NCBI GenBank assembly: GCA_026390435.1
Contig: JAPLFY010000135.1
Location: 1-38,841 of the forward strand
DNA: 38,841 bases
Direction: 5' to 3'
From: Pseudomonadota bacterium
Lineage (GTDB): Bacteria; Bdellovibrionota_B; Oligoflexia; Oligoflexales; CAIYRB01
Shown: positions 13,671-37,812 of the stretch, piece by piece
Layout: every line of letters begins with the position of its first letter
Numbering within the stretch: position 1 is the first letter of the stretch
Notes under the pieces: model-generated
What the model was told of the DNA's origin: nothing
Database searches by the model: none
The model's input: the letters and a program-made list of their open reading frames with translations, nothing else
Made by a program: the position numbers and the translations under genes

Positions 13671-16600
13671 ATGATATACCGTCCTAAACAAAGATATTCT
13701 ATTAGGTGCCAGGCTGGTGTGGCTCAGGTGGCCATCGCTCTGACATTCCTGACGTCAAGCTGCTTCAACCCTCCGGGAGGTGGCGGTGGGGCGAAAGGTG
13801 CCTTCACTAAGGCGGCCTCCATCCTGTCGGGGACTTCAAATGGCGGCAGTGATCAACAAGTCGTGGCGGGAACGCTGGCGATTGGAGAGTCGATCATAGC
13901 TGATATGGCAAGCTCTCTGAAGCTCGCAGGGTTGTCTGACGTACAGATCACAGCGGTGCAGGACTCAGCGCGTAGAGAACTTGCGGCAGGTGTTGTAGCG
14001 ATTCAGTCCAATACCATGAACCTCACTGTCGACATGCTGGGACAGCCGGTCGAATATGCTGCACCAGCGGTCGTGCGTGGTGCTGTGGCAGGACTCGCAT
14101 TGGTTGGGGCGGGCAATGTTGATCTTAAGGCTAATGCTGTCCAGGCTATCGTCGGCAGTTCTTTTAAGTCTCTAAGCGGCAAAACTGATGTGCTGCCGAC
14201 TGCGAATCTGCAAAACCTGGCGACTACAATGGCTGGTGGCGCGGTGTCTAAGCTCAGAGAGGCTGGATTTGCTTCGTCTGATGTAGGTCAGGCGGCTAAG
14301 TCTGTCACGAGTGGCAGTATTGCCAACCTACAAGCAGCTGGGATTAGCTCTGAGGCGATGGCTGGTGTTGCTAAGGCCGTGGTCACTGGCAGTGTTACTC
14401 AACTAGCCAACATTAATTTGCCAGCTGCGGACATTGCTGGAGCGGTTGCAGGAGCTGCCGAAGGTGCTGTGTCCTCAATCAGCACTACGGGTTTAAATCA
14501 GGCGGATACGGCTCAGCTAGCCGGGACTCTGACGGCAGCGAGTGTCCAAACATTGACCGCGTTTAAAGGTGCCTCGCAGTCGGTACTGCTTGATGCGATG
14601 CAAGACATATCGAAGGGCGCAGTTGCGGCATTGCAGACAGCAAACATTAGCAACACCTTTCTGGGTTCGGCCGTCGAGGCTATTGCATCTGGGAGCGTGG
14701 CAGCTATCAGTTCTGTCAGCGAGTCGTCCGGGTTTGGTAGCAACCTAATCACTAACGGAGCGGCAGCAGTTGCATCGGGAGCAATTTCTGGACTTACTGC
14801 TGTGTCACAAAAGTCTGACTCCTCGGTAACGGCTGCGGCAACTCAGAGTATCATCACTGGGACAATGGCCTCTTTGGCTACATCGTCCAGTCTAAACCTC
14901 GCAGACAAATCCGCCGCTGCTGCAAGTGTGGTCGGTAAATCGGTGGAAGCACTATCGACCTTGGGGTCTGAGGCAACAAAGACTGCAGCCATGGGATCTG
15001 TCATTGGGACAACCATGGCCAGCCTCCAATCACTGGGGATCGCTGCCGACGCGAAAACTACTGCGAGCACAGTGCAGGCCATTACTTCCAATGCAACTTC
15101 AGCCCTTGGCGTTGCTGGGTTTACAGGGAGCAACTTAGCCGCCGCATCTCAGTCGGTGGTTTCGACCACTGTTCAAGGGATCGACAAACTGAATGTTAGT
15201 TCAGCAGCAGATATAGGCAATTTGCTTAGCAATGTTCTTAGTGGGGTCTCGTCAGGCTACAGCGCACTGACAAAATCTGGTAAAGCTGACGAAAATGCCG
15301 CCGTTGCAGCGATTAATAGTTCGGCTCAGACAGCGTCATCTGCGGTTTCTACGCTAAAAAGTGCGAGTAATCTTTCCACTACAGAGATTGCCTCGGTGGC
15401 GCAGCAGGTTGCGGCAGCTACACCCGCAACCGTCTCTTATGCCGTGACTGAGCTAAAGCTAGTATTAGCCTCAGCAATGAGTGCGCTAGAGCCAAATAGA
15501 AAGGGATCTTTTAGCGACTGCAGTGCATCACCCGCATTACCAGTAGGTTTGACCCTTTCCGCAACTTGCACCATTACAGGCACTCCGGCTGTGGTCATTG
15601 CTCCGCAGAAGTACGTGATAACTCCCAAAGGTGGTGCCCCGTCGGGAATAGTTATCAGTGTCTCAACTAATTTACCGAGCATTGCTTACGCACAATCTGA
15701 TTACCAATTGGTGGGTGGCGCTACTGCAGTGAGCATTGTGCCTACTGTAACTGGCGGAGGAGTTACGAGCTGTTTGGTAAACCAGCCACTGCCGCCGGGC
15801 TTAGCCTTGACATCATCATGTGTGATCAGTGGCAACTTTGATTTTCTGTCCCCAGATAGGTACGACCCGGTAGGGCTAATTGTTCTCGATAAAGATGGCA
15901 ACGTGGTTAGTTCGCCAGTTGAAGGCAGAGACCAAGGCTATCGTTTCCGGGTTCCGTTTACCATTACGCCAGAAAATTCATTTGGTGCCGGCCCAGGAGT
16001 TAACATCACCTTAACGGCAACTCCACCATTCAGTATCTATCCGAGTAATAATTATGATTTCGATCTTTATAGCACCAGTACACAAATAACGATTAGCCCG
16101 ACTATTTCATTGAGCAATTTGACGAATTGCACAATCACTCCTAATTTGCCTGCTGGTCTCTATATTTCTACTGCAACCTGTTTGATCAGTGGCATCGGTA
16201 GTGCGCCATTTGCTTCAACTGTTTATCAAGTGACGACATCGAAGTCTGACGGTACGCAGATCCTGTCGCGATTCAGATTCAGTCTTAACCGCGATCCTTA
16301 CGGAATGTATTTTCCAATGGGGAACAGTTACACCGGCACTATTGGTGACACATTCTCGGTTGTGCCGAATTTTTCCGCGGCAACACCAACGGCGTGTGCT
16401 ATCTCACCAGCGACATTGCCAGCTGGTTTAACTAAGCAGAGCGACTGTTCCATTACAGGTACACCGACTGCAGCGTTTGCTGAGGTAAAATACCAGCTGA
16501 CCCCTTCCGGTTCTGCCGGTGAGGGAAGGCCGGTAGATTTAAATTTAAAAATCATGAGTAGTATCACCGTCACAGGAACCGTCAGCAGTTCTTCGGTGAA

Positions 16601-17870
16601 TCTTTCTAATTTAAATCAGTATTACGCTTACTATCAGGATTATAATTATCAATTTCCCTCTGGATCATCGATCTCAATCTCGCCCGTATATCCGACCGCG
16701 CTGACATCGACCGCATATTCCACTGGTATCGCTGGTACTACAACATCCACATCCACGGTCGGCACTGCATCACCAGTGCCCACTGCATGTTCGGTGACGC
16801 CATCGCTGCCTTCTGGGCTCAGCCTGTCTAATCAGTGTGTGATCAGCGGGACAGTGCCTGCGCCGGTGGGTGCAAATCAGTACGAGATTACGCCGAGTAG
16901 CACCGGCGTCATATGGGGGAAGATGTACCTTTCGCTAAAAGTTTCTGGCCCTATCTCACTTACAGCGGTGCCTAATGGGCCCACTGCGGTGAACCTGTCG
17001 TGGCCAGCCGTTTTGAATGCAACCAACTACGTCGTAATCGCTCATCAAGGGGGAGGTGTTGCGGCCACCGGCGCCAATGGGCGGCAGATTGCCCAAGTAA
17101 ATGCCGCTCCTGGTGATATCGTATTGTACTCAGGAAATGGTCTTAATTTTTCTCACACAGGTGGTGTCGCCGGTCAGGTATATCGCTACCGGGTATTCGC
17201 CTCATCCGGGTACTACGACTACGTTGCTTACGGGGTTGCCGGACCGGTCACAGTGGGTGTGACGGATATGTTACCGATGAGCTATCCCGCGCGTGAGTAT
17301 ACTCTTAGTGAAGGCTTTCAGATTACGATAGAGCCATCATTTGCGGGTAATCCGGCTGGTAGCTGCGTTTCTGTGCCGGAACTTCCTGCGGGCCTTAGTC
17401 TCAGCAGTGGCTGCATAATTTCGGGTGCGCCGTTAAAACCTTCGTGGGGCAAGTATCTCATTACACCTTCTAGATATTCAGTTTCTGGTGCATCAGTTGA
17501 AATTACCCTGAGAGTCATGGAGCTCATTGGCGTTACGCCTGATACGAATCTCGAGCGCTATGTGGAATTGTCCTGGGGTAGTCCTTTGGCCCCCAGCAAC
17601 TATGTGGTCATGGCAAGCCCCACTGCACCTAATTTGTCCTTTCCACCTGACAGTATCACTTACCATGTGGGGGATCAGACTCTCTGGGGTACCGTCATTT
17701 ATGATGGCGCTGACGACATGGCAGCGCATGAGAATCTGTTACCAGGCGCTAAGTATTACTACACCGTATTTGGTTATTCGTTCGACACCGGCTATACGTC
17801 TCGCGGCACTATCGGGCCAGTTACCGTGCGGCAAAAATTTGATGGCATTCAAGAAGACGCAGTCATTTAA
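13671..17870 (+). CDS. Giant surface lipoprotein: Ala-rich repeats and putative-Ig domains (5' part of broken gene)
   Basis: This open part encodes 1399 aa. The signal ends in lipobox TSSC (Cys31), followed by a glycine-rich spacer. Residues about 50-600 are an Ala/Ser/Gly-rich array of roughly 40-residue helical repeats (AVTxGxVxxL patterns such as SVTSGSIANLQAAG and EAIASGSVAAISSV). From about residue 613 come six putative-Ig (He_PIG-like) domains, each with LPxGLxLSxxCxISG and a second Cys 9-16 residues earlier. Two fibronectin-III-like segments (NLSWPAVLNATNYVV and ELSWGSPLAPSNYVV) separate the last domains. The frame ends at 17870, but homologous NHL-type sequence continues in another frame from about 17840, so this is the front of a longer gene. 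A role at the surface, such as adhesion, is only an inference. Confidence 0.8.
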   Translation: MIYRPKQRYSIRCQAGVAQVAIALTFLTSSCFNPPGGGGGAKGAFTKAASILSGTSNGGSDQQVVAGTLAIGESIIADMASSLKLAGLSDVQITAVQDSARRELAAGVVAIQSNTMNLTVDMLGQPVEYAAPAVVRGAVAGLALVGAGNVDLKANAVQAIVGSSFKSLSGKTDVLPTANLQNLATTMAGGAVSKLREAGFASSDVGQAAKSVTSGSIANLQAAGISSEAMAGVAKAVVTGSVTQLANINLPAADIAGAVAGAAEGAVSSISTTGLNQADTAQLAGTLTAASVQTLTAFKGASQSVLLDAMQDISKGAVAALQTANISNTFLGSAVEAIASGSVAAISSVSESSGFGSNLITNGAAAVASGAISGLTAVSQKSDSSVTAAATQSIITGTMASLATSSSLNLADKSAAAASVVGKSVEALSTLGSEATKTAAMGSVIGTTMASLQSLGIAADAKTTASTVQAITSNATSALGVAGFTGSNLAAASQSVVSTTVQGIDKLNVSSAADIGNLLSNVLSGVSSGYSALTKSGKADENAAVAAINSSAQTASSAVSTLKSASNLSTTEIASVAQQVAAATPATVSYAVTELKLVLASAMSALEPNRKGSFSDCSASPALPVGLTLSATCTITGTPAVVIAPQKYVITPKGGAPSGIVISVSTNLPSIAYAQSDYQLVGGATAVSIVPTVTGGGVTSCLVNQPLPPGLALTSSCVISGNFDFLSPDRYDPVGLIVLDKDGNVVSSPVEGRDQGYRFRVPFTITPENSFGAGPGVNITLTATPPFSIYPSNNYDFDLYSTSTQITISPTISLSNLTNCTITPNLPAGLYISTATCLISGIGSAPFASTVYQVTTSKSDGTQILSRFRFSLNRDPYGMYFPMGNSYTGTIGDTFSVVPNFSAATPTACAISPATLPAGLTKQSDCSITGTPTAAFAEVKYQLTPSGSAGEGRPVDLNLKIMSSITVTGTVSSSSVNLSNLNQYYAYYQDYNYQFPSGSSISISPVYPTALTSTAYSTGIAGTTTSTSTVGTASPVPTACSVTPSLPSGLSLSNQCVISGTVPAPVGANQYEITPSSTGVIWGKMYLSLKVSGPISLTAVPNGPTAVNLSWPAVLNATNYVVIAHQGGGVAATGANGRQIAQVNAAPGDIVLYSGNGLNFSHTGGVAGQVYRYRVFASSGYYDYVAYGVAGPVTVGVTDMLPMSYPAREYTLSEGFQITIEPSFAGNPAGSCVSVPELPAGLSLSSGCIISGAPLKPSWGKYLITPSRYSVSGASVEITLRVMELIGVTPDTNLERYVELSWGSPLAPSNYVVMASPTAPNLSFPPDSITYHVGDQTLWGTVIYDGADDMAAHENLLPGAKYYYTVFGYSFDTGYTSRGTIGPVTVRQKFDGIQEDAVI

Positions 17871-22469: not shown

Positions 22470-23375
22470 TCAGCCCAAAACACGATCGACTTTGCGGCCG
22501 TTAGACCGATGCTTCTCGATGAAGTCGATAATGGCACCGGCGACGTCTTTTTGCGTAGATTTCTCGATGCCCTCAAGACCAGGTGAGGAGTTAACCTCCA
22601 TGACCACTGGACCATGACTCGAGCGCAAGATGTCGACGCCCGCAATGTTCAGACCCATCGCCTTGGCCGCCTTGACGGCAGTGGCGCGCTCGGCTGGCGT
22701 GATCTTAACTTTGCTAGCGACTCCACCACGGTGCAAATTGGAGCGGAATTCGCCTTCGGGAGCGCGTCGCATCATGGAAGCGAAGACTTTGTCGCCAATG
22801 ACAAAACAGCGGATATCATTGCCGTGCGCTTCTTTGATGAATTCCTGGACAATGATATTGGCTTTGAGGCCGCGGAATGCCTCAATGACGCTCTCCGCCG
22901 CGTTGCGATTCTCGGCCAGCACGACGCCAATGCCCTGAGTCCCTTCTAGAAGTTTAACGACTAGGGGAGGGCCACCGACAGAATTGATCAAGCCGTCCAC
23001 GTCACGGGTCGAGTGTGCGCAGCCTGTGACTGGTAGGCCGATGCCCTGTCTTGCCATAATCTGCAGGCTCCGCAGTTTGTCACGCGATCGTGAAATTGCC
23101 AAAGAGCGATTAAGGGTGAAGGTTCCTATCATTTCAAACTGACGAACCACGGCCGTCCCGTAAAACGTATGGGAGGCACCAATGCGCGGAATAACCGCGT
23201 CAAAATCAGCCAGCGAGCGTCCCTTAAAAAAGATCTGTGGCTTATGTGAGGTGATGTTCATGAAGCAGCGCAGATAATCAATGACCTCGACCGTATGACC
23301 ACGGTCACGTGCCGCATCGACCAAACGACTGGTGGAGTACAGCGAGGCTTTGCGCGACAGCACTGCGATTTTCAT
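22470..23375 (-). CDS. rimK: RimK, ATP-grasp alpha-L-glutamate ligase (ribosomal protein S6 modification)
   Basis: The protein is 301 aa, matching E. coli RimK (300 aa) end to end in recognisable blocks: [102 protein letters not shown] and [16 protein letters not shown] (ATP-grasp metal ligands Glu/Asn). RimK adds glutamates to the C-terminus of ribosomal protein S6 and can make poly-alpha-glutamate. Its start overlaps by 4 nt (ATGA) the stop of the RimB-like protease gene, the pairing seen in Pseudomonas rim operons. All catalytic residues appear intact. Confidence 0.96.
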
Positions 23376-23851
23376 GCTTGGACCTTGGTAGAGAGAGTAG
23401 GTTTTTTACCACCTAGATATGAACGACCAGCATCTACGAGAAAGCGTCCGCGCAGGGCTTGTCTGCCTATGAGCATACGAAACCCCATTGTTCCGCGCGC
23501 CACCAGAGTCAGCTCGACTCGGATTTTTCGACCTTTTAAATAAACCACAGTTTCGATGACTGGTCGCAGTGAAGTTTTGCCACCCGAATCTCGTACATGT
23601 CTTTCCTCGATCAGCGGCGCTTCGCAGATGACGATTTGCTTCGTCGTGCGCTGCAGTGGGTGGACTTCAAAGCGGACCCAGGTCTTACCTGCTTTGACTA
23701 TATAGCTAATATTGATAGCATGCAGAGCCGACGTCCGTGCACCAGTGTCGACTTTGGCTTTAACGCGCGCCAGACCTAATTCAGGCAGTGAGACATATTC
23801 ACGCCAGCCGACAATCTTGAGAGTCTTGGCTGTGCTTACTTCCGTGCTCAA
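23372..23851 (-). CDS. rimB: RimB-like retropepsin-fold protease (ATP-dependent zinc protease family)
   Basis: The protein is 159 aa. The aspartic-protease motif [11 protein letters not shown] begins at Asp35, followed by the typical [10 protein letters not shown] strand and [22 protein letters not shown], and ends [24 protein letters not shown]. This is the family annotated as ATP-dependent zinc protease or RimK/LysX-type. In Pseudomonas RimB acts with RimK to trim or regulate glutamate tails on S6. Its stop overlaps the rimK start, so the two are coupled. No rimA (EAL phosphodiesterase) is adjacent, although a diguanylate cyclase gene lies 11 kb away. The symbol is given by family and context. 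Confidence 0.85.
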
Positions 23852-26296: not shown

Positions 26297-27223
26297 TTAC
26301 TTCATCTGGTGGATATAGCCAGTCGCGGTTACCGGCGTTCCGTCTTCCCAGTATAGCCCTGTTGCCTGCATAATCTCCCCAATTTTGTGCACTCCTAAAG
26401 AGGGTCCGAATGGTTGCGCCTGGATCAAGGCGGCACCTGCTGCCGGCGGCAGAGTAAAGCAAAGTTCGAAGTCTTCACCGTCGCTTAGCGCGTGATCTAG
26501 AGCTGTTTTGCCACTTTGTTTGGCTTTGTCCATTGCAGCGGCGCTGATTGGTATGGTTGCTTTATTAATGGTTGCACCCACGCCGCTGGCGCGCAGAATA
26601 TGGCGTAAATCAGAACCTAGGCCGTCACTAAGGTCGAGCATAGAAGTTAGGCCAAATTGCCGGTGCAATGTCTTGGCCTCGTCGATGCGCGGTATAAAAT
26701 TAAGGTGTTTAGCGGTGATGCTGCCACCTAGGTCACCAGTCACGCAGATCCAATCACCGACTTTGGCACCGCCTCGCTGGACGCTGCCGTGCTCGTGGGG
26801 AGTGCCTGTAATAGTGACGCTGATCACTAACGGACCGTTCCAAGAATTGGTATCTCCGCCCGCGATAGCTACGCCAAACTGCTCTGCGAGTGGTAGCATT
26901 CCCCGCATTATCTCTTTCGCTAGCTGTTCACCGCCGATTCGTGGCAGCGCTAAGCAGACGGTGACATTGGTGGGCGTGCCGGCCATGGCCGCTATATCGC
27001 TAAGATTGACGGCCAGTGCCTTGCGGCCGGCAAGTTGGGGGCCTGATTTTTTTAGGTCAAAATGGACGCCGTCCATGATCATATCTGCTGCTAGTAAAGT
27101 CCCGTGCGGTGCTGGCGGTAGCAGCGCTGTGTCGTCGCCCAGACCAATGGTGAGTACGCGATTGGGTGGGTGCTTTGCTGTTAATTCTGCGGCAAGCCAG
27201 TCGATGAATTCAAATTCCGCCAT
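26297..27223 (-). CDS. thiL: Thiamine-monophosphate kinase
   Basis: The protein is 308 aa. It has the ThiL pattern: MAEFEFIDWLA, LTIGLGDDTALLPP, the metal-binding LLAADMIMDGVHFDL, GRKALAVNLSDIAAMAGTP, GGDTNSWNGPLVISVTITG and LDLSDGLGSDLRHI. ThiL phosphorylates thiamine monophosphate to the cofactor thiamine diphosphate in the cytoplasm, using ATP and magnesium. Its start overlaps the 3' end of gluQ by 14 nt in a different frame, so the two are co-translated. No TPP riboswitch is apparent in the upstream region of the pair, and no other thiamine gene is in the window. Confidence 0.95.
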   Translation of the reverse strand: MAEFEFIDWLAAELTAKHPPNRVLTIGLGDDTALLPPAPHGTLLAADMIMDGVHFDLKKSGPQLAGRKALAVNLSDIAAMAGTPTNVTVCLALPRIGGEQLAKEIMRGMLPLAEQFGVAIAGGDTNSWNGPLVISVTITGTPHEHGSVQRGGAKVGDWICVTGDLGGSITAKHLNFIPRIDEAKTLHRQFGLTSMLDLSDGLGSDLRHILRASGVGATINKATIPISAAAMDKAKQSGKTALDHALSDGEDFELCFTLPPAAGAALIQAQPFGPSLGVHKIGEIMQATGLYWEDGTPVTATGYIHQMK

Positions 27224-28157
27224 GGCTACGACCTTTTTTTGACAGGTGTGTCGAAAGTAGTTGCGGTAGTTCTAAGACGGTCAAAGGGCGCGCTGCGTCC
27301 AGCAACCCTACCGCGTGAGCCGCCTCCCCCAGTACTACTTCCGGATCTTCGCCAGCTAGTCGACGGCTGGCGATAGCACTATCAAGTAAGCGTTTGCTAA
27401 GTTTTTGGCCGTTACTGCCCATAATCAGTGGATGATGGAAATATGAGATGGCGTCAGATCCACCCAATTTATTTGCTAACCAAAGCTGTCGACTCGTCGC
27501 ATGCAATACATCCTCGCCGCGAATGACCAGATTGATTCCCTGACGTAGGTCGTCGACAACGACGGCAAAGTTATAGGTGTATTGGCCATGCCTATCTTTC
27601 AGCAGTAGGTCCCCGCATTGAAAGGCCGGAGTTTGTGTCTGCATGCCAAGGTGAAGATCATCAAATCCTAACTCGGTGTGAGGAATCTGTAGCCTCAGGC
27701 CAACGTCTGGTGCATCAAGTGGAATACCGCGTGTCCTGCAGTAGCCATCGTAGCGAAGCTCCTCAGCGTTAGCACTGCCGTTACGAAGTAGAATTTCCTG
27801 ACGGGAGCAATTGCAAGCATACACCTGACCCGATGCAATTAACTGTGACAATGCTGACTCAAAGTGAACGCAGGCATCACTCTGTCTGTAGGTAGAGTTG
27901 ACGGCAAACCGAAAATCTGTGTTGTCGTGGGCAAAGCCGAGCCATGCAAGATCGGCGAATATGGCCTCTTCATAATCACGTCGGCATCGCCCGGTATCAT
28001 GGTCTTCCATGCGCAGCAAAACACGTGCCGAGGCAGAGCGAGCCACGCCCCAGACGAATATTGCTGAGGCTACATGGCCTAGATGGAGATAGCCGGTCGG
28101 GCTTGGCGCAAAGCGTGTGATTACCTTCTTCGGGCCGTTGCCTATCAGTGCGTTCAT
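27210..28157 (-). CDS. gluQ: Glutamyl-Q tRNA(Asp) synthetase
   Basis: The protein is 315 aa, similar to E. coli YadB/GluQ (about 300 aa). It has the class I nucleotide motif FAPSPTGYLHLGH (HIGH-like), KLSKR (KMSKS-like), RMEDHDTGRCR, the zinc-site cysteines ACNCSR with GYCRTR, and LVIRGEDVLHATSRQLWL. It lacks the anticodon-binding C-terminus of GluRS, which separates GluQ from true GltX. GluQ attaches glutamate to queuosine-34 of tRNA(Asp). The queuosine pathway should therefore exist elsewhere in the genome. It heads a two-gene overlapping unit with thiL. Confidence 0.94.
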   Translation of the reverse strand: MNALIGNGPKKVITRFAPSPTGYLHLGHVASAIFVWGVARSASARVLLRMEDHDTGRCRRDYEEAIFADLAWLGFAHDNTDFRFAVNSTYRQSDACVHFESALSQLIASGQVYACNCSRQEILLRNGSANAEELRYDGYCRTRGIPLDAPDVGLRLQIPHTELGFDDLHLGMQTQTPAFQCGDLLLKDRHGQYTYNFAVVVDDLRQGINLVIRGEDVLHATSRQLWLANKLGGSDAISYFHHPLIMGSNGQKLSKRLLDSAIASRRLAGEDPEVVLGEAAHAVGLLDAARPLTVLELPQLLSTHLSKKGRSHGGI

Positions 28158-28336: not shown

Positions 28337-29125
28337 GTGAGGCCTTTTCTGCAAGCATTTAGACCGAGCATTGTCGCCGGATTTTTACTCTCAGGTGTGA
28401 TGTGCGCCCTGCCTATGCAGGCTGCTGCGCCGCGCCTCGATGGGAAGGTCCGTAAGAGCTCGCTCTCATCAGTGCCAGTGCCGACGGAAGCCGAGCACCT
28501 GCGCAGTAGTTTGCTAGACATAGCTCAGAGCTACGGACAGCGTACCTACGTTCCCTATGTCTGGGGTGGCAATGCTATCGGTGACCAAGCCGACTGCGAG
28601 TCCTGTCGTGCTTGTGTCGAGAGCAAAAAGCATTTACCGGTGAAGAAGCGCCGTTCCGCCTGCCAAGTTTGTAAACGATGTGGTGTTGACTGTAGTCATT
28701 TCGTCCATCGCCTACTGAACGAGGCTGGCCTCGATTATCCTTATTTGGCGACTCAGAGGCTTAAACGCATGTCGGCCGACCACCTGCGTGATTACAACCT
28801 TGTGGACATCGGACGCGATTTAGATCGTGCCAGGCCTGGTGATCTTCTGCTCCAAGATCATCACATCGTCATGTTACTGGCGATGAATGGACAGAACGAA
28901 GGGGATCTCATTCACGTCAGTAGGTCCATCAAACATGGGCGCGTTGGCGGTATAGAGATTTTACGACGGATGAATATTGCGCATCTACGCGGTAAGGTAG
29001 TGCGGATTCTGCGTCACGTGGCTTTAGACTCTGGATCCACAGATTTCCCGCCCATTCCCAATTTTCGCCACATTTACCCGCGAACCGTTGGTACTGGGGT
29101 GACCCGGCTAGTGCTGGCACCGTGA
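28337..29125 (+). CDS. NlpC/P60-type peptidase with a twin CxxCxxC insertion
   Basis: The protein is 262 aa. GTG 28337 begins a signal peptide (MRPFLQAFRPSIVAGFLL, through MQAAAP), so the product is exported. The papain-like core is visible: YVPYVWGGNAIGD, catalytic Cys119 in VDCSHFVHRLL, LDRARPGDLLLQDHHIVML (catalytic His) and IHVSRSIKHG. Between YVWGG and DCS sits an insertion of about 35 residues with CESCRAC (87-93) and CQVCKRC (109-115), six cysteines in two CxxCxxC triplets, absent from ordinary NlpC/P60 domains. Its gene is 7 nt from murI, so a peptidoglycan cleavage or recycling role is likely. No good Shine-Dalgarno precedes the GTG. A 10-codon ORF (ATG 28308 to TGA 28340) overlaps the start and could couple translation. 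Confidence 0.8.
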   Translation: MRPFLQAFRPSIVAGFLLSGVMCALPMQAAAPRLDGKVRKSSLSSVPVPTEAEHLRSSLLDIAQSYGQRTYVPYVWGGNAIGDQADCESCRACVESKKHLPVKKRRSACQVCKRCGVDCSHFVHRLLNEAGLDYPYLATQRLKRMSADHLRDYNLVDIGRDLDRARPGDLLLQDHHIVMLLAMNGQNEGDLIHVSRSIKHGRVGGIEILRRMNIAHLRGKVVRILRHVALDSGSTDFPPIPNFRHIYPRTVGTGVTRLVLAP

Positions 29126-29132
29126 GGGCTGC

Positions 29133-30020
29133 TTGAATCCGAGAGATACACCAACGATCGGTGTCTTTGATTCCGGCGTCGGCGGACTGACCATCTTGTC
29201 TGAATTACAGTCTCGGTTGCCGCACGCGCGTTTCGTTTATGCAGCCGATAACGCGCATTTTCCCTATGGAACGCGGTCCCCGGCGGAGGTCACGAAGTGG
29301 ACCTTAGCTACCGTGGGACAGATGCTCGCAACGGTGCCGGTTGATGTGATTGTGGTGGCTTGCAATACTGCGAGCACTGCAGCCTTGCCGGCGCTACGCC
29401 AGAAGTTTGGGATTCCCGTAGTCGGTGTGGTGCCAGCTGTGAAGCCGGCTGCTGCGGGCACTAAGTCTGGAGTAGTGGGGTTACTAGCCACTTCAGCCAC
29501 TGTTACTCGTCCCTATACCGATGAACTGATTGATCAGCATGCTCGCCACGTGACGGTGTTAAAGGTGGGATCGAAGCTCCTTGTGGATTTGGCCGAGGCT
29601 AAACTACGCGGTGAATCGGTTGTCATAGAGCAAGTGCGACAAGAGATTGCGCCTTTTTTCGCGTATAAACATAGATCGTCAGAGTTTGGTGCGGAGCCAA
29701 ATTCGGTCGATACGATTGTTCTCGGCTGCACCCACTTTCCGTTACTGCTAGACGAGCTTAAGCAAGCTGCCCAGTGGCCCGTGACATGGCTTGATTCTGG
29801 TAGTGCGGTGGCCCAGCGGACTGCGGCGGTCCTAGGTGAACGTGGCATTCAAACTGACTCCGGAAATGTCTCCAGGGTTGTGCGTGGCGCGGAGAATATC
29901 TGCTTCTTCACGTCAGTGAGTGATGCGATGGGCGCGAGTAGCGTTACAAATCTTTTGCCGGTGTTAGCTCAGTATGATTTGCTCCAGGTCAGCCACCTGC
30001 CTCTTCCGATGGATGTTTAA
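29133..30020 (+). CDS. murI: Glutamate racemase
   Basis: The protein is 295 aa. It has the IGVFDSGVGGLTIL start, YAADNAHFPYG, and the two catalytic cysteines Cys77 (VVACNTAS) and Cys199 (LGCTHFPLLL). MurI makes D-glutamate for peptidoglycan stems in the cytoplasm. The start codon is TTG, with GAGGG 4-5 nt upstream, inside a 7-nt gap from the peptidase gene, so the two genes are surely one transcript. The length is slightly above the usual 265-285 aa, with extra residues in the segment from about 171 to 192. A SAM methyltransferase gene follows after 19 nt. Confidence 0.96.
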   Translation: MNPRDTPTIGVFDSGVGGLTILSELQSRLPHARFVYAADNAHFPYGTRSPAEVTKWTLATVGQMLATVPVDVIVVACNTASTAALPALRQKFGIPVVGVVPAVKPAAAGTKSGVVGLLATSATVTRPYTDELIDQHARHVTVLKVGSKLLVDLAEAKLRGESVVIEQVRQEIAPFFAYKHRSSEFGAEPNSVDTIVLGCTHFPLLLDELKQAAQWPVTWLDSGSAVAQRTAAVLGERGIQTDSGNVSRVVRGAENICFFTSVSDAMGASSVTNLLPVLAQYDLLQVSHLPLPMDV

Positions 30021-30039: not shown

Positions 30040-30732
30040 ATGACAAAACACAAAAATGTTTATGAGATGCCGGCTGTGTCCGATCAAGTCATCGGTGGTA
30101 CCTTGGTCGAGTCTCTAACCCTCCGTGGCCACAGCATCACTCTAGTCCGTCCCAAGTCTCCGGAAAAACTGCTAGATTTGGGTGAGGTAGAGTCGGCTTA
30201 CCACCAAGACGAATACATGCCCTACTGGGCTACCCTATGGCCTGTAGCCAGGTACCTGGCGGAAGAGGTTTTGAGTTTGGAGTGGCCTGCAGGTGGCAAG
30301 GCTATAGAACTCGGGTGTGGTCTAGGCCTGCCTGGAATCGCCGCGTTGATAAAAGGCATGGATGTTACATTTACCGATTATGATGCGACGGCTCTCAGGT
30401 TTGTCGAGGAAAATGCAAAGGCGAATGGATTTGGCTCTGTGCGTACCTTGCTACTGGATTGGCGTACCCCGCTTCCAGAGACTTTCGATTTAATTCTGGC
30501 ATCAGATGTGATCTACGAGCAGCGCAATGTCGCACCCTTGGTCGCTAGCTTTAGCGCTATGCTGTCAGCTGGAGGCAGCATTATTCTGGCCGATCAGAAT
30601 AGGCCACATGCGGATGAACTGCGCGATGAGTTAAAGCAGGCCGGCTTTGCGTGGATCGCTAAATCTATTCCCATAGATCCCACTCTAGGCCGTGAAGTCA
30701 GTGGTACGCTCTACCAGATTACCCGCGTTTAG
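30040..30732 (+). CDS. SAM-dependent methyltransferase (METTL/nicotinamide-N-MTase-like)
   Basis: The protein is 230 aa. The Rossmann SAM site is AIELGCGLGLPGI (88-100), preceded by the family's YWATLWPVARYLAEE, and followed by VTFTDYDATALRFVEENAKANG, DLILASDVIYEQ and GGSIILADQ. This matches the class I group that includes protein-lysine methyltransferases such as ETFbeta-KMT and METTL20-like bacterial enzymes. A protein-lysine target is a reasonable guess, but not proven. The ribosome binding site is weak, so it probably relies on coupling or readthrough from murI. The 3' end overlaps the convergent lipoprotein gene by 14 nt. Confidence 0.85.
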   Translation: MTKHKNVYEMPAVSDQVIGGTLVESLTLRGHSITLVRPKSPEKLLDLGEVESAYHQDEYMPYWATLWPVARYLAEEVLSLEWPAGGKAIELGCGLGLPGIAALIKGMDVTFTDYDATALRFVEENAKANGFGSVRTLLLDWRTPLPETFDLILASDVIYEQRNVAPLVASFSAMLSAGGSIILADQNRPHADELRDELKQAGFAWIAKSIPIDPTLGREVSGTLYQITRV

Positions 30733-32380
30733 CATCTGGCTGCACTGATTTTGCCGACAGACCGCGTGGATTGCTCGCCTCGATCTTGAGTCCATCCTTG
30801 TGAATGGTGAACAAGTAAGTGGGCCAGGCTGAGTGCCTAGTATCGTCAAATAGTCGCCCTTTGCCGGGAAATCCAACCTGCTCAGCAGTCATCTTCGCCA
30901 TTGCTGTTGCGATTTGGCGTCGTGTTTGTGTTGAGTCAAACGAGGCCTTTGCGACTTGTGCTGACCTGTAGCCTACCAATTGAAAATCGATGGCAGTGAC
31001 GCTTTGGGGATCGACAAAATAGGGCGAGCTCGTTGTTGGGGTCTGGATTCCCGTCGGAATTTTTGCGTAACTTCCTATGAAATCAGCAAATAGACTTTCG
31101 CCGAGTAGGTCGTCATAAGGCTGTATTAAAGCCGGCGAGCGCCATTCGTGATTGCCTATCATTGTGATGCGTTCGACGCGGTTATAGCGGAATATCTTGG
31201 CAAAGTACCTAACTGTCCGAAAATCATCTGGGATGAATACTGCGTCAAATTCGATCTTTGGTTTTAGAAAGACCATTTTCGGGTTGAAAGTTACGCCCTC
31301 TGCTTCGGCATCTTCTTTGGCTTTTTTATGGGCAGCACGTAGTTCATCTTCGCGACCAGTTACGCTCATTTGGAATAGTTGATGGGCAGCTGCCTGCATG
31401 CTTTCAAAATTGCCAGGTGTATAGGTGAGTTCCGTGCGAATCTCACCACCTAGGGTACGAATGCTTTGGGTAAAGTAATTTGTCACCTTATCTGCCTTGC
31501 CGCCCAGCGGTTTAAGTACGGCAACTCTACGTAATCGCCTATCGTGAAGAGCTGTGGCGAGGGAATCTGCCAATCGCGCCTCATCCGGATAGACCATAAA
31601 TGCATATCTAGACGGCTTGGTTAAGTCACGGTCACGATTCAGCAGAATCACCGGCAGAAATAGTCTCTCACTCCACTGGGCTAGGTGCTCGGCGTGGGTA
31701 TGAGTGAATCCACCAATAACCAGACCAACCTGGTCTTTGAGCACTAATTCAGCCATAGCTTTATCCATGGACTGTAGGGAGGTGCCGCTATCTTTCAGAA
31801 CAAATCTCTGGTCAAAAGATTTGCCTGTCTCAGAGAATGCTGCCCGCATCCCCGCCACAATGTAATTTGAATCTTTAGCATAGGGTCCTGTTAGTGGAAG
31901 TAGTACTCCGACTTTCCCAGAGTGCAAGTTGATGGTGTCTAGAGCACTTTGAATCAGATCGCGGCGCTGTGTTGCCTGTTCGCAGATATTGGTATCAGAG
32001 TGTGCAATTTTTTCGGCGACGCTTTTTAAGCCTTCAATACTATGCGGAGGAAGTGCATCGAATAGCCTTTTATAAGTCTGGCCAAAACGCTGCAGAATTT
32101 CACGGCAGTGATTTATTTCAGTCGGGTTTGCAACAGTTGCTGCAGGCAAATCTAGCGTTGATTTTGGCTTAGGTTGCTCGAGTTCTATATCGATGGATCG
32201 TCTAGGCGGTCGCTCACTCGGTAGGGCAATGGCAAATTCTACAGCGTATCTAGGCGCCGAGCGACTTCCTGAGATGTTCTTCTCACTAGTCGTGCAGCCG
32301 GGAAGCATCAGCATTAGGTACAGGCTTAATGTCTGTGTCCTTATTGTTATGCTTGCTGATTTAGTTCCTGAAAACATCAC
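30719..32380 (-). CDS. LpoA-like lipoprotein with a periplasmic-binding-protein fold
   Basis: The protein is 553 aa. The signal ends in a clear lipobox (LPGC, Cys29). Residues about 95-150 are a helical repeat-like region. From GKVGVLLPLTGPYAKDSNYIVAGM to DLLGESLFADFIGSY the protein follows the Leu/Ile/Val-binding (Peripla_BP_6) fold, as in LpoA, the outer-membrane activator of PBP1A. The gene's first 20 nt overlap the 3' end of the PBP1A-type gene, which strongly suggests functional coupling. An inserted lysine-rich segment (RAAHKKAKEDAEAEG) marks a family variation. LpoA itself is described in gammaproteobacteria, so orthology is not proven here. An amino-acid binding role is the alternative. 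Confidence 0.8.
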   Translation of the reverse strand: MMFSGTKSASITIRTQTLSLYLMLMLPGCTTSEKNISGSRSAPRYAVEFAIALPSERPPRRSIDIELEQPKPKSTLDLPAATVANPTEINHCREILQRFGQTYKRLFDALPPHSIEGLKSVAEKIAHSDTNICEQATQRRDLIQSALDTINLHSGKVGVLLPLTGPYAKDSNYIVAGMRAAFSETGKSFDQRFVLKDSGTSLQSMDKAMAELVLKDQVGLVIGGFTHTHAEHLAQWSERLFLPVILLNRDRDLTKPSRYAFMVYPDEARLADSLATALHDRRLRRVAVLKPLGGKADKVTNYFTQSIRTLGGEIRTELTYTPGNFESMQAAAHQLFQMSVTGREDELRAAHKKAKEDAEAEGVTFNPKMVFLKPKIEFDAVFIPDDFRTVRYFAKIFRYNRVERITMIGNHEWRSPALIQPYDDLLGESLFADFIGSYAKIPTGIQTPTTSSPYFVDPQSVTAIDFQLVGYRSAQVAKASFDSTQTRRQIATAMAKMTAEQVGFPGKGRLFDDTRHSAWPTYLFTIHKDGLKIEASNPRGLSAKSVQPDAKRG

Positions 32381-34442
32381 GATACCCCGCGGCGCTTGCT
32401 GCCGATAGTGCTTCTAATGCTGATGCCGCCGACTCGGCTGGAGGTTCGTTGCCTTTTAAGAAGTACATCCGAACGCCGGTATCTGCCCGAGTACCAAAAT
32501 GTGGATTGACCACGGTGGCGACAACGTTGTCCGGAGGATTCGAATGGGTTGGGGGCCTTATTTTAAAGGCCGCAGCCATATATTTTTCCCAAATAGGAAG
32601 AGCGAGCTTACTGCCGGTGGCGTTACCAAACATGCGTGCGTGCTCGTCAGTTCCTACCCAGACGATTGTGCTAAGATTCGGTGCGTATCCACAAAACCAG
32701 TTGTCCGTTGAGTCATTGGAGGTACCTGTTTTGCCAACGGCATAATTAGCTAGGTGACCAGCTGATGCTGCGGTACCAAATTGTAATACAGTGCGCATAC
32801 CCTCAGTCATCAGGAATGCGATTTGAGGGGATACAGCACTCGTGCTTCGCGCGCTTACCGGGGAGGCTTGATAGAGTATCTTGCCATCGCGAGTTGTAAT
32901 CTTTGTAATCGCGATATGTTCGACGAGTTTTCCCGAGTTAGCAAATGAACTGTACATGCGGGAAAGGTCCATCATGCTAACGTCGGAGCTACCGAGCAGG
33001 GTGCCAAATTCAGCTTTGAGAGGGGTACGAATACCTAGGCGCTGGGCCATATCAACTATCGGCTTCAGCCCGATCTTTTGTCCTATTTCGACGGTGGGTG
33101 TATTCATAGATCGATAGAAAGCGCGCAGTAGTGTCGTCTCTTTGCCAAAGTCCTCGTCAGGGGTCCGTGGTCGATAGTTGTCGATAGTGATAGGGGACAC
33201 GAAAATTAAGTCACTCCATTTCCAGTTCTGCGCCAAAGCCTGAGCATAGACTACTGGTTTGAATGCAGATCCTGGGGATCTTAGAGCCTGATGTGTACGA
33301 TTGAACTTGCTCGTGTTGTAGTTTCGCCCGCCAACCATGGCGAGGATCTCGCCAGTATTAGGATCCACGGAAAGTAGGGCGGCTTCAAGGGTAGCCTTGA
33401 GATTCTCACCATCTTTATTGCGTACGAACGCAACTTTTTTGGCTGCTTCATCCAGGAGTTTTCCGGATCCGTTGAGACCAGCTTCCGCCAATTTCTGTAA
33501 GTGAGTGTCTAAGGTTGTGTGGATACGTAAACCTTGGCCAGATATGTTGCCTTTCTTACTAAGAAGTTTCTGCGCTTCATCTTTGATATAGTCGATGAAA
33601 TAAGGCGCAAACTCTTCGTTAAGCGGTCGATAGTTTTTATAAAGTAATTTGGCCGTCGTGAGTTCTTGCAGCTCTATCGCTGTTATCATTTTTGATTGGT
33701 GCATGGCTGACAGTACTTGCAGCTGACGACGTTTGGCACGTTTCGGATAGCGAGCGGGATTATAACGACTGGGCGACTGAAAGAGTCCAGCGATCAGTGC
33801 TTGTTCCTGAGGTGCAAGATCGACTAGGTTCTTGCCAAAATAGCGTTGGGAAGCCGCGCCGATACCGTAAGATCCGTTGCCAAGAAACATGGTGTTTAAG
33901 TAAATCTCGAGAATTCTGTCCTTGGTGAGTTGCCGCTCGAGCTGAACCGCGAGGCCAATCTCTTGCACTTTTCTTTGCATCGATCGTTCGTTAGTCAGGA
34001 GGAAGTTGCGCACGACCTGCTGCGTGATCGTGCTGGCTCCTTGCTGGCTCTTGGTGCCACGCAAATGAACCCAGGTGGCTCTAAGTATGCCTTTGGGGTC
34101 AAATCCTTGGTGATCCCAAAAGCTCCGATCCTCAATTGCTAATACGGCATCGATGATACCTTTAGGGATTTTTTTGAACGGTACGTGGACCTGGTAGCGG
34201 CTAAAGACCTCACCAATCTTTTGGCCGTCTCGAGACAAAATCAGCGTGTTGTCCTGTGGTTTGCTATCAACTATGGTGGCAAGCTGTTCTTGCTTTAAGT
34301 CGAATACCTGGAGAGTGTCTAGCCAAAGGTACAGCGCGAAAGTTCCGCCTAGAACTGTGGCTGCTGTGACCGCAATTGCAATGCGCAGGCTTGCTGCCAG
34401 CAGTCGCTGGCGGAGGCTGAAATTGTATGAGCGCTGCGACAT
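32361..34442 (-). CDS. mrcA: Class A penicillin-binding protein (PBP1A-type)
   Basis: The protein is 693 aa. A short cytoplasmic stretch and one transmembrane helix (about 16-42) precede the glycosyltransferase domain, with catalytic Glu104 in AIEDRSFWDHQG, TITQQVVRNFLL, and RILEIYLNTMFLGNGSYGI. The transpeptidase domain carries SAFK (Ser392, Lys395), SMN (445-447) and KTGTS (571-575). All active-site motifs are intact. It polymerises glycan strands and cross-links peptides in the periplasm. It is shorter than E. coli PBP1A (about 850 aa), lacking the large OB-type insertion. It is followed by the overlapping LpoA-like gene, a natural enzyme-activator pair. Confidence 0.95.
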   Translation of the reverse strand: MSQRSYNFSLRQRLLAASLRIAIAVTAATVLGGTFALYLWLDTLQVFDLKQEQLATIVDSKPQDNTLILSRDGQKIGEVFSRYQVHVPFKKIPKGIIDAVLAIEDRSFWDHQGFDPKGILRATWVHLRGTKSQQGASTITQQVVRNFLLTNERSMQRKVQEIGLAVQLERQLTKDRILEIYLNTMFLGNGSYGIGAASQRYFGKNLVDLAPQEQALIAGLFQSPSRYNPARYPKRAKRRQLQVLSAMHQSKMITAIELQELTTAKLLYKNYRPLNEEFAPYFIDYIKDEAQKLLSKKGNISGQGLRIHTTLDTHLQKLAEAGLNGSGKLLDEAAKKVAFVRNKDGENLKATLEAALLSVDPNTGEILAMVGGRNYNTSKFNRTHQALRSPGSAFKPVVYAQALAQNWKWSDLIFVSPITIDNYRPRTPDEDFGKETTLLRAFYRSMNTPTVEIGQKIGLKPIVDMAQRLGIRTPLKAEFGTLLGSSDVSMMDLSRMYSSFANSGKLVEHIAITKITTRDGKILYQASPVSARSTSAVSPQIAFLMTEGMRTVLQFGTAASAGHLANYAVGKTGTSNDSTDNWFCGYAPNLSTIVWVGTDEHARMFGNATGSKLALPIWEKYMAAAFKIRPPTHSNPPDNVVATVVNPHFGTRADTGVRMYFLKGNEPPAESAASALEALSAASAAGYRDVFRN

Positions 34443-36794: not shown

Positions 36795-37812
36795 ATGCCG
36801 CCGAGCCGTTACTCAAGTAGCGACAATTTTAAAGGCGCAAAGAAAAGAAGTCTGCTCGACGCCTACCGAAGCCTATTGAACTGCGAAAAAGCGTTTACCT
36901 TTGGAGCTTTTGCAAACGATCGTGCGAAGCCTCGGTCAAGACTTAAACCAGCAGGCGAAAGAAGTCTGGGCACATGGGCGAGTGCTAGTGGTCGACGGCA
37001 GCGGATTCTCCATGCCGGATACTAAATCTAATGCCAAAAAGTTTATAAGGCATGGAGAAAATACACATGGAAAGGCAAATAAAAAATCAGGAGTAGCCTT
37101 TCCCATTGGGCGTATCGTCGCTGTGTATATTGTCACGGAGCTCAAAAAGACTAGTCAGTGGCGAATCAATCCCAAACTGGATGATCAAATCATCGAGATT
37201 GAGCGACCACGTTGGAGAGATCAAAGTTGTAGTATTTCGCTTCCGGAGCACGAAGCACTGCCGGAAAAAATCGAAGTGCGGGTCATTAAAATTACATGCG
37301 CTCCAAAAGGGTTTCGCCCTAAAACTAAATTCATCCTGACCACTCATACCGACTCTAAGAAGGTACCTAAAGCCGACTTAGCTGACCTTTACCGCAAAAG
37401 ATGGCAAGTCGAACTCAACTTTAGGTCGATCAAAACAATACTTGGAATGGATGTCGTCCGTAGCACATCTGAGGAAATGGTAGTCAAGGAGGTTTGGGTG
37501 CATATGCTTGCCTATAATCTAGTTAGAGAAACCATGTGTGTAGTAGCAGCGACTAAGCGCTGCCTAACATCAGAGGTAAGCTTTCGTGCCACGCAGCAGA
37601 TCATGTCAGTCTGGCGTCTTGTGAATGCCGTGCGAGGTAAGCGACTGCACCAATCTGAAATGATCGAAATCCTGATGACCCAGTCTCTCGTAGGGCAGAG
37701 ACCAGATCGATATGAACCGCGAGCAATCAAGAGAAGGCAGAAAAGTTACCGGCTTTTAATACACTCCAGAGCAGTCGCCAAAACCATGCTGCACAAGAAG
37801 TCCAAGAAATGA
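36795..37812 (+). pseudogene. IS4-family transposase, inactivated
   Basis: The main frame, from TTG 36901, codes 303 residues. First catalytic Asp32 is in VVDGSGFSMPDT. The third-site YREK motif is intact (Tyr164, Arg167, Glu171, Lys178 in LYRKRWQVELNFRSIK), followed by TILGMDVVR and the AYNLVRE block. The second catalytic Asp and roughly 60 residues around it are missing: FPIGRIVAVY joins directly to the SQWRINPKLDD region near nt 37130. Upstream, homology (AKKRLPLELL) is interrupted by TGA at 36877-36879, at a place where related transposases have a Cys codon, and the rest of the N-terminus lies in another frame (36795 onward). It cannot be an active transposase. Confidence 0.85.

Follow-up and report, generated by a model that had tools for sequence, protein, structure and literature searches.

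The window analyzed here, a stretch of 38,841 nucleotides, encodes an NlpC/P60-type cell-wall peptidase of 262 amino acids (GTG start) in which an insert carrying twin CxxCxxC triplets separates the first strand of the catalytic core from the nucleophilic cysteine. An exported NlpC/P60 protein with this unusual insert had been described in the original prediction, and the present analysis supports that description, export being predicted from the N-terminus; the two triplets, CESCRAC (residues 87–93) and CQVCKRC (109–115), lie between YVWGG and Cys119 exactly as had been noted. The best explanation, to which we give roughly even credence, is a peptidoglycan endopeptidase with a helical insert at the side of its cleft that is pinned by disulfides.

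The peptidase and its family

The window peptidase scores 24.0 bits against PF00877 (NLPC_P60; cut-off 23.0), the sole Pfam family that it is given, and the match sets residues 73–195 on profile positions 3–81, indicative of a long insert. A PF00877 match of some kind was obtained for 27 of 29 family members at E<=1, not all of them above the cut-off, and the paralogue L063 has no match at E<=0.001. The catalytic triad of NLPC_P60 proteins is Cys-His-His (PMC10318531), an arrangement that C119, H176 and H193, all invariant in the 29 aligned members, fit. Apart from the start Met, the alignment is also invariant at Y74, G77, G78, the six insert cysteines, D118, S120, D169, V178, G204, R226 and H227. 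Structure models were in agreement with this assignment. The AlphaFold model of the paralogue L011 (pLDDT 89.8) found RipB, MagC, DVU_0896 and RipD as its best PDB matches in Foldseek, at probabilities of 0.96–1.00 and TM by target up to 0.66, with E-values of only 0.002–0.02; the model of the window peptidase (pLDDT 78.9) gave weaker matches of the same kind, and no PDB match of either model reached an E-value of 0.001. The protein exceeds the Pfam cut-off, possesses a DCS cysteine followed by two downstream histidines, and matches a papain-like fold.

Positions of the peptidase gene, the parts of its product and the neighboring genes in the window
Feature	Position	Strand	Basis
Exported NlpC/P60-type cell-wall peptidase (export predicted), twin CxxCxxC insert, group B	28337..29125	+	ORF; PF00877; family alignment
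Predicted Sec-type signal peptide (hydrophobic ~10–25; AxA-like end near 28–31)	28337..28430	+	sequence reading
YVWGG, residues 74–78, first strand and glycine pair of NlpC/P60 core	28556..28570	+	Y74, G77, G78 invariant
First triplet CESCRAC, inside predicted helix 84–96	28595..28615	+	invariant 39/39
Second triplet CQVCKRC, in and after predicted helices 102–108 and 110–113	28661..28681	+	invariant 39/39
Nucleophile motif D118-C119-S120-H121 (VDCSHF)	28688..28699	+	D, C, S invariant
His176, catalytic His	28862..28864	+	invariant (family alignment)
His193, third residue of Cys-His-His triad	28913..28915	+	invariant (family alignment)
murI (glutamate racemase, PF01177), 7 bp downstream of peptidase	29133..30020	+	adjacency in 10/10 group B loci
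gluQ-like (class I E/Q tRNA-synthetase catalytic domain), divergent neighbor	27210..28157	-	neighborhood annotation
LppC/LpoA-like protein (PF13458, PF04348), likely PBP activator	30719..32380	-	neighborhood annotation
Class A penicillin-binding protein (transglycosylase and transpeptidase)	32361..34442	-	neighborhood annotation

The window protein is probably an NlpC/P60 peptidoglycan hydrolase that would act as a gamma-D-Glu-diamino-acid endopeptidase. We consider it very unlikely that it is instead a non-catalytic, binding protein of the RipD type, or that its NlpC/P60 fold cuts some other amide. None of the NCBIfam models names the window peptidase or its family, the RipD model being the one that most members match, weakly (9/29), and RipD structures are among the Foldseek matches; however, the Cys-His-His residues, D118 and S120 are invariant in all members, unlike in RipD, which is non-catalytic according to PDB titles.

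Export of the window peptidase is suggested by its hydrophobic N-terminus with an AxA-like end. A scan for Tat motifs found no twin-arginine motif in this protein, nor a consistent Tat motif across its relatives. The cysteines of the window peptidase are residues 23, 87, 90, 93, 109, 112, 115 and 119, and Cys23, the only one beyond the insert and the nucleophile, falls within the predicted signal peptide. In every relative the mature part possesses exactly seven cysteines and no stray one.

With known NlpC/P60 peptidases (PF00877, MEROPS C40; RipB, DVU_0896 and Spr/MepS), the window family shares the core fold, the GG strand, the DCS motif and the two catalytic histidines, as well as predicted export and a cell-wall gene neighborhood. 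It differs from them by the addition of a six-cysteine insert of ~30 residues between GG and DCS, and the window peptidase stands barely above the Pfam cut-off. A literature search, covering part of the literature, found no paper on such an insert in NlpC/P60 proteins, and the sequences that carry it apparently constitute a subfamily, so far undescribed, that forms an order-wide branch of this known family.

Conservation and predicted structure of the cysteine insert

In the window peptidase 39 residues lie between GG77-78 and D118, whereas in the phylum's ordinary NlpC/P60 proteins ~5–15 residues, without cysteine triplets, separate GG from DC. The pattern GG-x8-CxxCxxC-x12-18-CxxCxxC-xx-DCS is kept in 39 of 39 distinct relatives spanning the site, sequences that were gathered with a pattern of that same form and cross-checked against the matches of a profile search. 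The loop between the triplets is 14 residues long in 29 of the 39, and the C115-x3-C119 spacing is invariant. Three profile matches lacked the pattern (G014:C479, G001:C205 and G042:C115), and in each of these the sequence reaches the contig end; a further, weak profile match (G009:C1:1176063) is an ordinary NlpC/P60 protein with a short linker. The mean pairwise identity of the domain among the 39 relatives is 40% (minimum 24%); the cysteine columns are 100% identical, and most other columns of the insert are identical in 11–20% of pairs. Homologues that had lost the cysteines while remaining otherwise intact, the finding that was to speak against the original prediction, did not occur among these relatives. 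Relative to the closest sequence (97% protein identity), the insert of the window gene displays eight synonymous and no amino-acid changes, two of the eight being TGT to TGC replacements in cysteine codons. Chance or a sequencing artefact was rejected as the source of the insert on the basis of the retention of its cysteines in 39/39 sequences.

The insert of the window peptidase was modeled confidently (pLDDT 86–94). In this model and in that of L011 the first triplet is predicted to lie in a single helix (residues 84–96 and 56–69, respectively), with its cysteines at positions i, i+3 and i+6 on one face, while the second is carried or bordered by two short helices and is only partly helical; short strand pieces are found at either end of the insert in both models.

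Proposed role of the cysteine insert and alternatives

The genome possesses a pathway for oxidation of exported proteins. One of its genes (L116 1066-2325, G000:C74) specifies a fusion of VKOR to a DsbA/thioredoxin domain that contains a CPAC site, and VKOR is present in 54 of the 58 genomes of the phylum that were searched. DsbB was found in only 4 of the 58 and not in this genome, and was rejected as the oxidase on account of this absence, VKOR-DsbA being present instead. Exported proteins of mycobacteria receive disulfides from DsbA and VKOR (PMC12421883). A DsbD protein with a thioredoxin domain is also encoded in this genome.

We favor disulfides over metal because export is predicted to be of the Sec type, without a consistent Tat motif, because the mature protein has six cysteines plus one, and because a VKOR-DsbA fusion is available. 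Leaving aside the nucleophile, the seven mature cysteines are just enough for three pairs, and in an oxidizing compartment these would most simply form nested disulfides across an antiparallel hairpin. We propose that the Sec-exported hydrolase would cut peptidoglycan using Cys119-His176-His193, and that an extra alpha-helical hairpin, placed after the first core strand and ahead of the nucleophile helix, would be crossed by three disulfides, in the simplest nested order C87-C115, C90-C112 and C93-C109, which the VKOR-DsbA fusion would lay down. Judging from its position, the insert would border the way in to the catalytic cysteine, and in rigid form it could act as a lid or side wall where the substrate enters the cleft, fixing substrate choice and stability. 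Because the models make just part of the second triplet helical, the disulfides may fail to stack as a regular three-rung ladder. The location of the catalytic cysteine beside six oxidizable cysteines, which risks mispairing, also counts against the disulfide clamp, as does the fact that CxxCxxC is a ligand motif for zinc and Fe-S clusters.

Known proteins offer partial parallels for a disulfide clamp. In the type VI secreted DL-endopeptidases Ssp1/Tae4, which are papain-like peptidoglycan endopeptidases as the window family is predicted to be, a disulfide next to the active-site cleft seems important for shaping one of its sides (PMC3852654). They differ in that there is one disulfide (Cys146-Cys150), located in another loop, in that they are effectors with an immunity partner, and in lacking a six-cysteine insert. 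The CHCH or twin-cysteine hairpins of the mitochondrial intermembrane space consist of two helices whose cysteine repeats are pinned by disulfides, and the insert may work in a similar way; helices are predicted in it at 84–96 and 102–108/110–113, with the same arrangement in the modeled paralogue. These eukaryotic hairpins, with Cx3C or Cx9C spacing, serve here as a model only, and homology is not claimed.

The main rival to the disulfide clamp is a structural zinc module, in which the CxxCxxC pair would bind one or two zinc ions and stiffen the hairpin with no redox role, a realistic possibility but not a likely one. The CxxC pairs are typical zinc knuckles, all six cysteines are invariant, and zf-CXXC appeared in 3 of 16 insert-only scans (best E=0.0024, below the cut-off), while an insert-only profile gave weak LIM, ZZ and CXXC-finger matches in the PDB and nothing significant. 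Nevertheless, these similarity scores are chance-sized and driven by the cysteines alone, no His or Asp of the insert is invariant among the 39 relatives as an extra zinc ligand, and export into a periplasm kept oxidizing by VKOR-DsbA disfavors all-thiolate zinc sites. The CXXC zinc finger (PF02008) has the twin CxxCxxC in common with the insert; it requires two further distal cysteines and binds DNA. Against this model the window insert scores 16.5 bits, with a cut-off of 26.5, and provides six cysteines versus eight ligands. Binding of a [4Fe-4S] cluster by C109, C112, C115 and C119, with the nucleophile as fourth ligand and the enzyme silenced, appears exceedingly improbable, even though C109-xx-C112-xx-C115-xxx-C119 is the exact ferredoxin spacing, kept in 39/39 sequences, and weak Fer4_9 matches occur in 2 of 29 members (best E=0.0047). 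Despite its ligand spacing, the window insert attains 11.9 bits against Fer4 families, with a cut-off of 21.1; the lack of a consistent Tat motif means that export probably takes place in the unfolded state, without a cluster; Cys119 stands in an invariant DCS catalytic context with both histidine partners intact; and no Fe-S genes are among the neighbors examined. An Fe-S protein was therefore rejected as the main reading, given the lack of a consistent Tat motif and the identity of the fourth cysteine with the nucleophile.

The invariant C115-x3-C119, which places Cys115 four residues before the nucleophile, and the presence in the genome of DsbD, a reductase, alongside the VKOR-DsbA oxidase are suggestive of a redox gate, e.g. 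a Cys115-Cys119 disulfide that would block the nucleophile until DsbD-linked reduction activated the enzyme. There is a precedent in the Lyz endolysin of phage P1, whose catalytic cysteine is tied up in a disulfide that cages the enzyme. Such a gate nonetheless strikes us as decidedly unlikely: static pairing accounts equally well for the even count of insert cysteines, and DsbD and VKOR are general housekeeping genes that are unlinked to the peptidase gene. We likewise regard as unlikely the broader idea that the six-cysteine module at the cleft switches the endopeptidase according to redox or metal state, with the nucleophile as a partner (in C115-C119 or in a metal site of C109/C112/C115/C119), so as to couple wall growth to periplasmic redox. 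If the module were redox- or metal-dependent, it would provide a rare direct link from periplasmic thiol chemistry to wall cutting; as a static disulfide clamp it would still furnish a clear marker for the family and a good candidate substrate of VKOR-DsbA.

Distribution, paralogue groups and gene neighborhoods

A protein search of relatives located the peptidase family in 28 of 56 genomes. A profile search covering 58 genomes, all from one phylum, detected it in 28 of 43 that belong to the order and in 0 of 15 that belong to sister orders, a scope that does not prove restriction to the order. A contig scan with exact short peptides returned one near-identical relative only. Neither phages nor plasmids gave a match to the family, and viral contigs gave no confirmed match; on these grounds a mobile or phage origin was rejected. 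A magnetochrome domain search for magnetotactic relatives yielded no match anywhere, controls included.

The family comprises two paralogue groups, separated by a branch with a support of 100/100: group A, with the motif CS[LI]DCS (25 sequences), and group B, with CG[VMIL]DCS (14 sequences, including the window peptidase). Families f1 and f8 of this order each have members of both groups, and the duplication that produced them is therefore old. The six-cysteine proteins make up an order-wide branch, as yet unnamed, of cell-wall peptidases whose active site has an invariant cysteine module beside it, and the duplication within this branch predates the split of at least two families.

The groups have different neighbors. 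The gene that immediately follows the peptidase gene is murI in 10 of 10 group B loci examined, both being on one strand and separated by -40 to +36 bp; genes for an LppC/LpoA-like protein and a class A PBP are nearby in 8 of the 10, and gluQ and thiL in most. For group B, a cell-wall role is supported by this association with murI and PBP genes. In group A, EF-P is the downstream, co-oriented neighbor of the peptidase gene in 12 of 12 loci read, and accB and accC usually come next. Several families of the order have, beside EF-P and the group A peptidase gene, a conserved neighbor encoding a VTT membrane domain joined to an alpha/beta hydrolase domain (L063 8779-10263, with matching genes in 10 group A loci).

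Elsewhere in the window, a RimK-like ligase gene adjoins a gene for a putative ATP-dependent zinc protease (PF05618) at 22470-23851 on the minus strand, a pair also found in L073. An ORF of 1399 amino acids (13671-17870) contains putative Ig-like (He_PIG) domains and possibly encodes a surface protein, and a transposase DDE-domain gene (36901-37812) is located near the right end.
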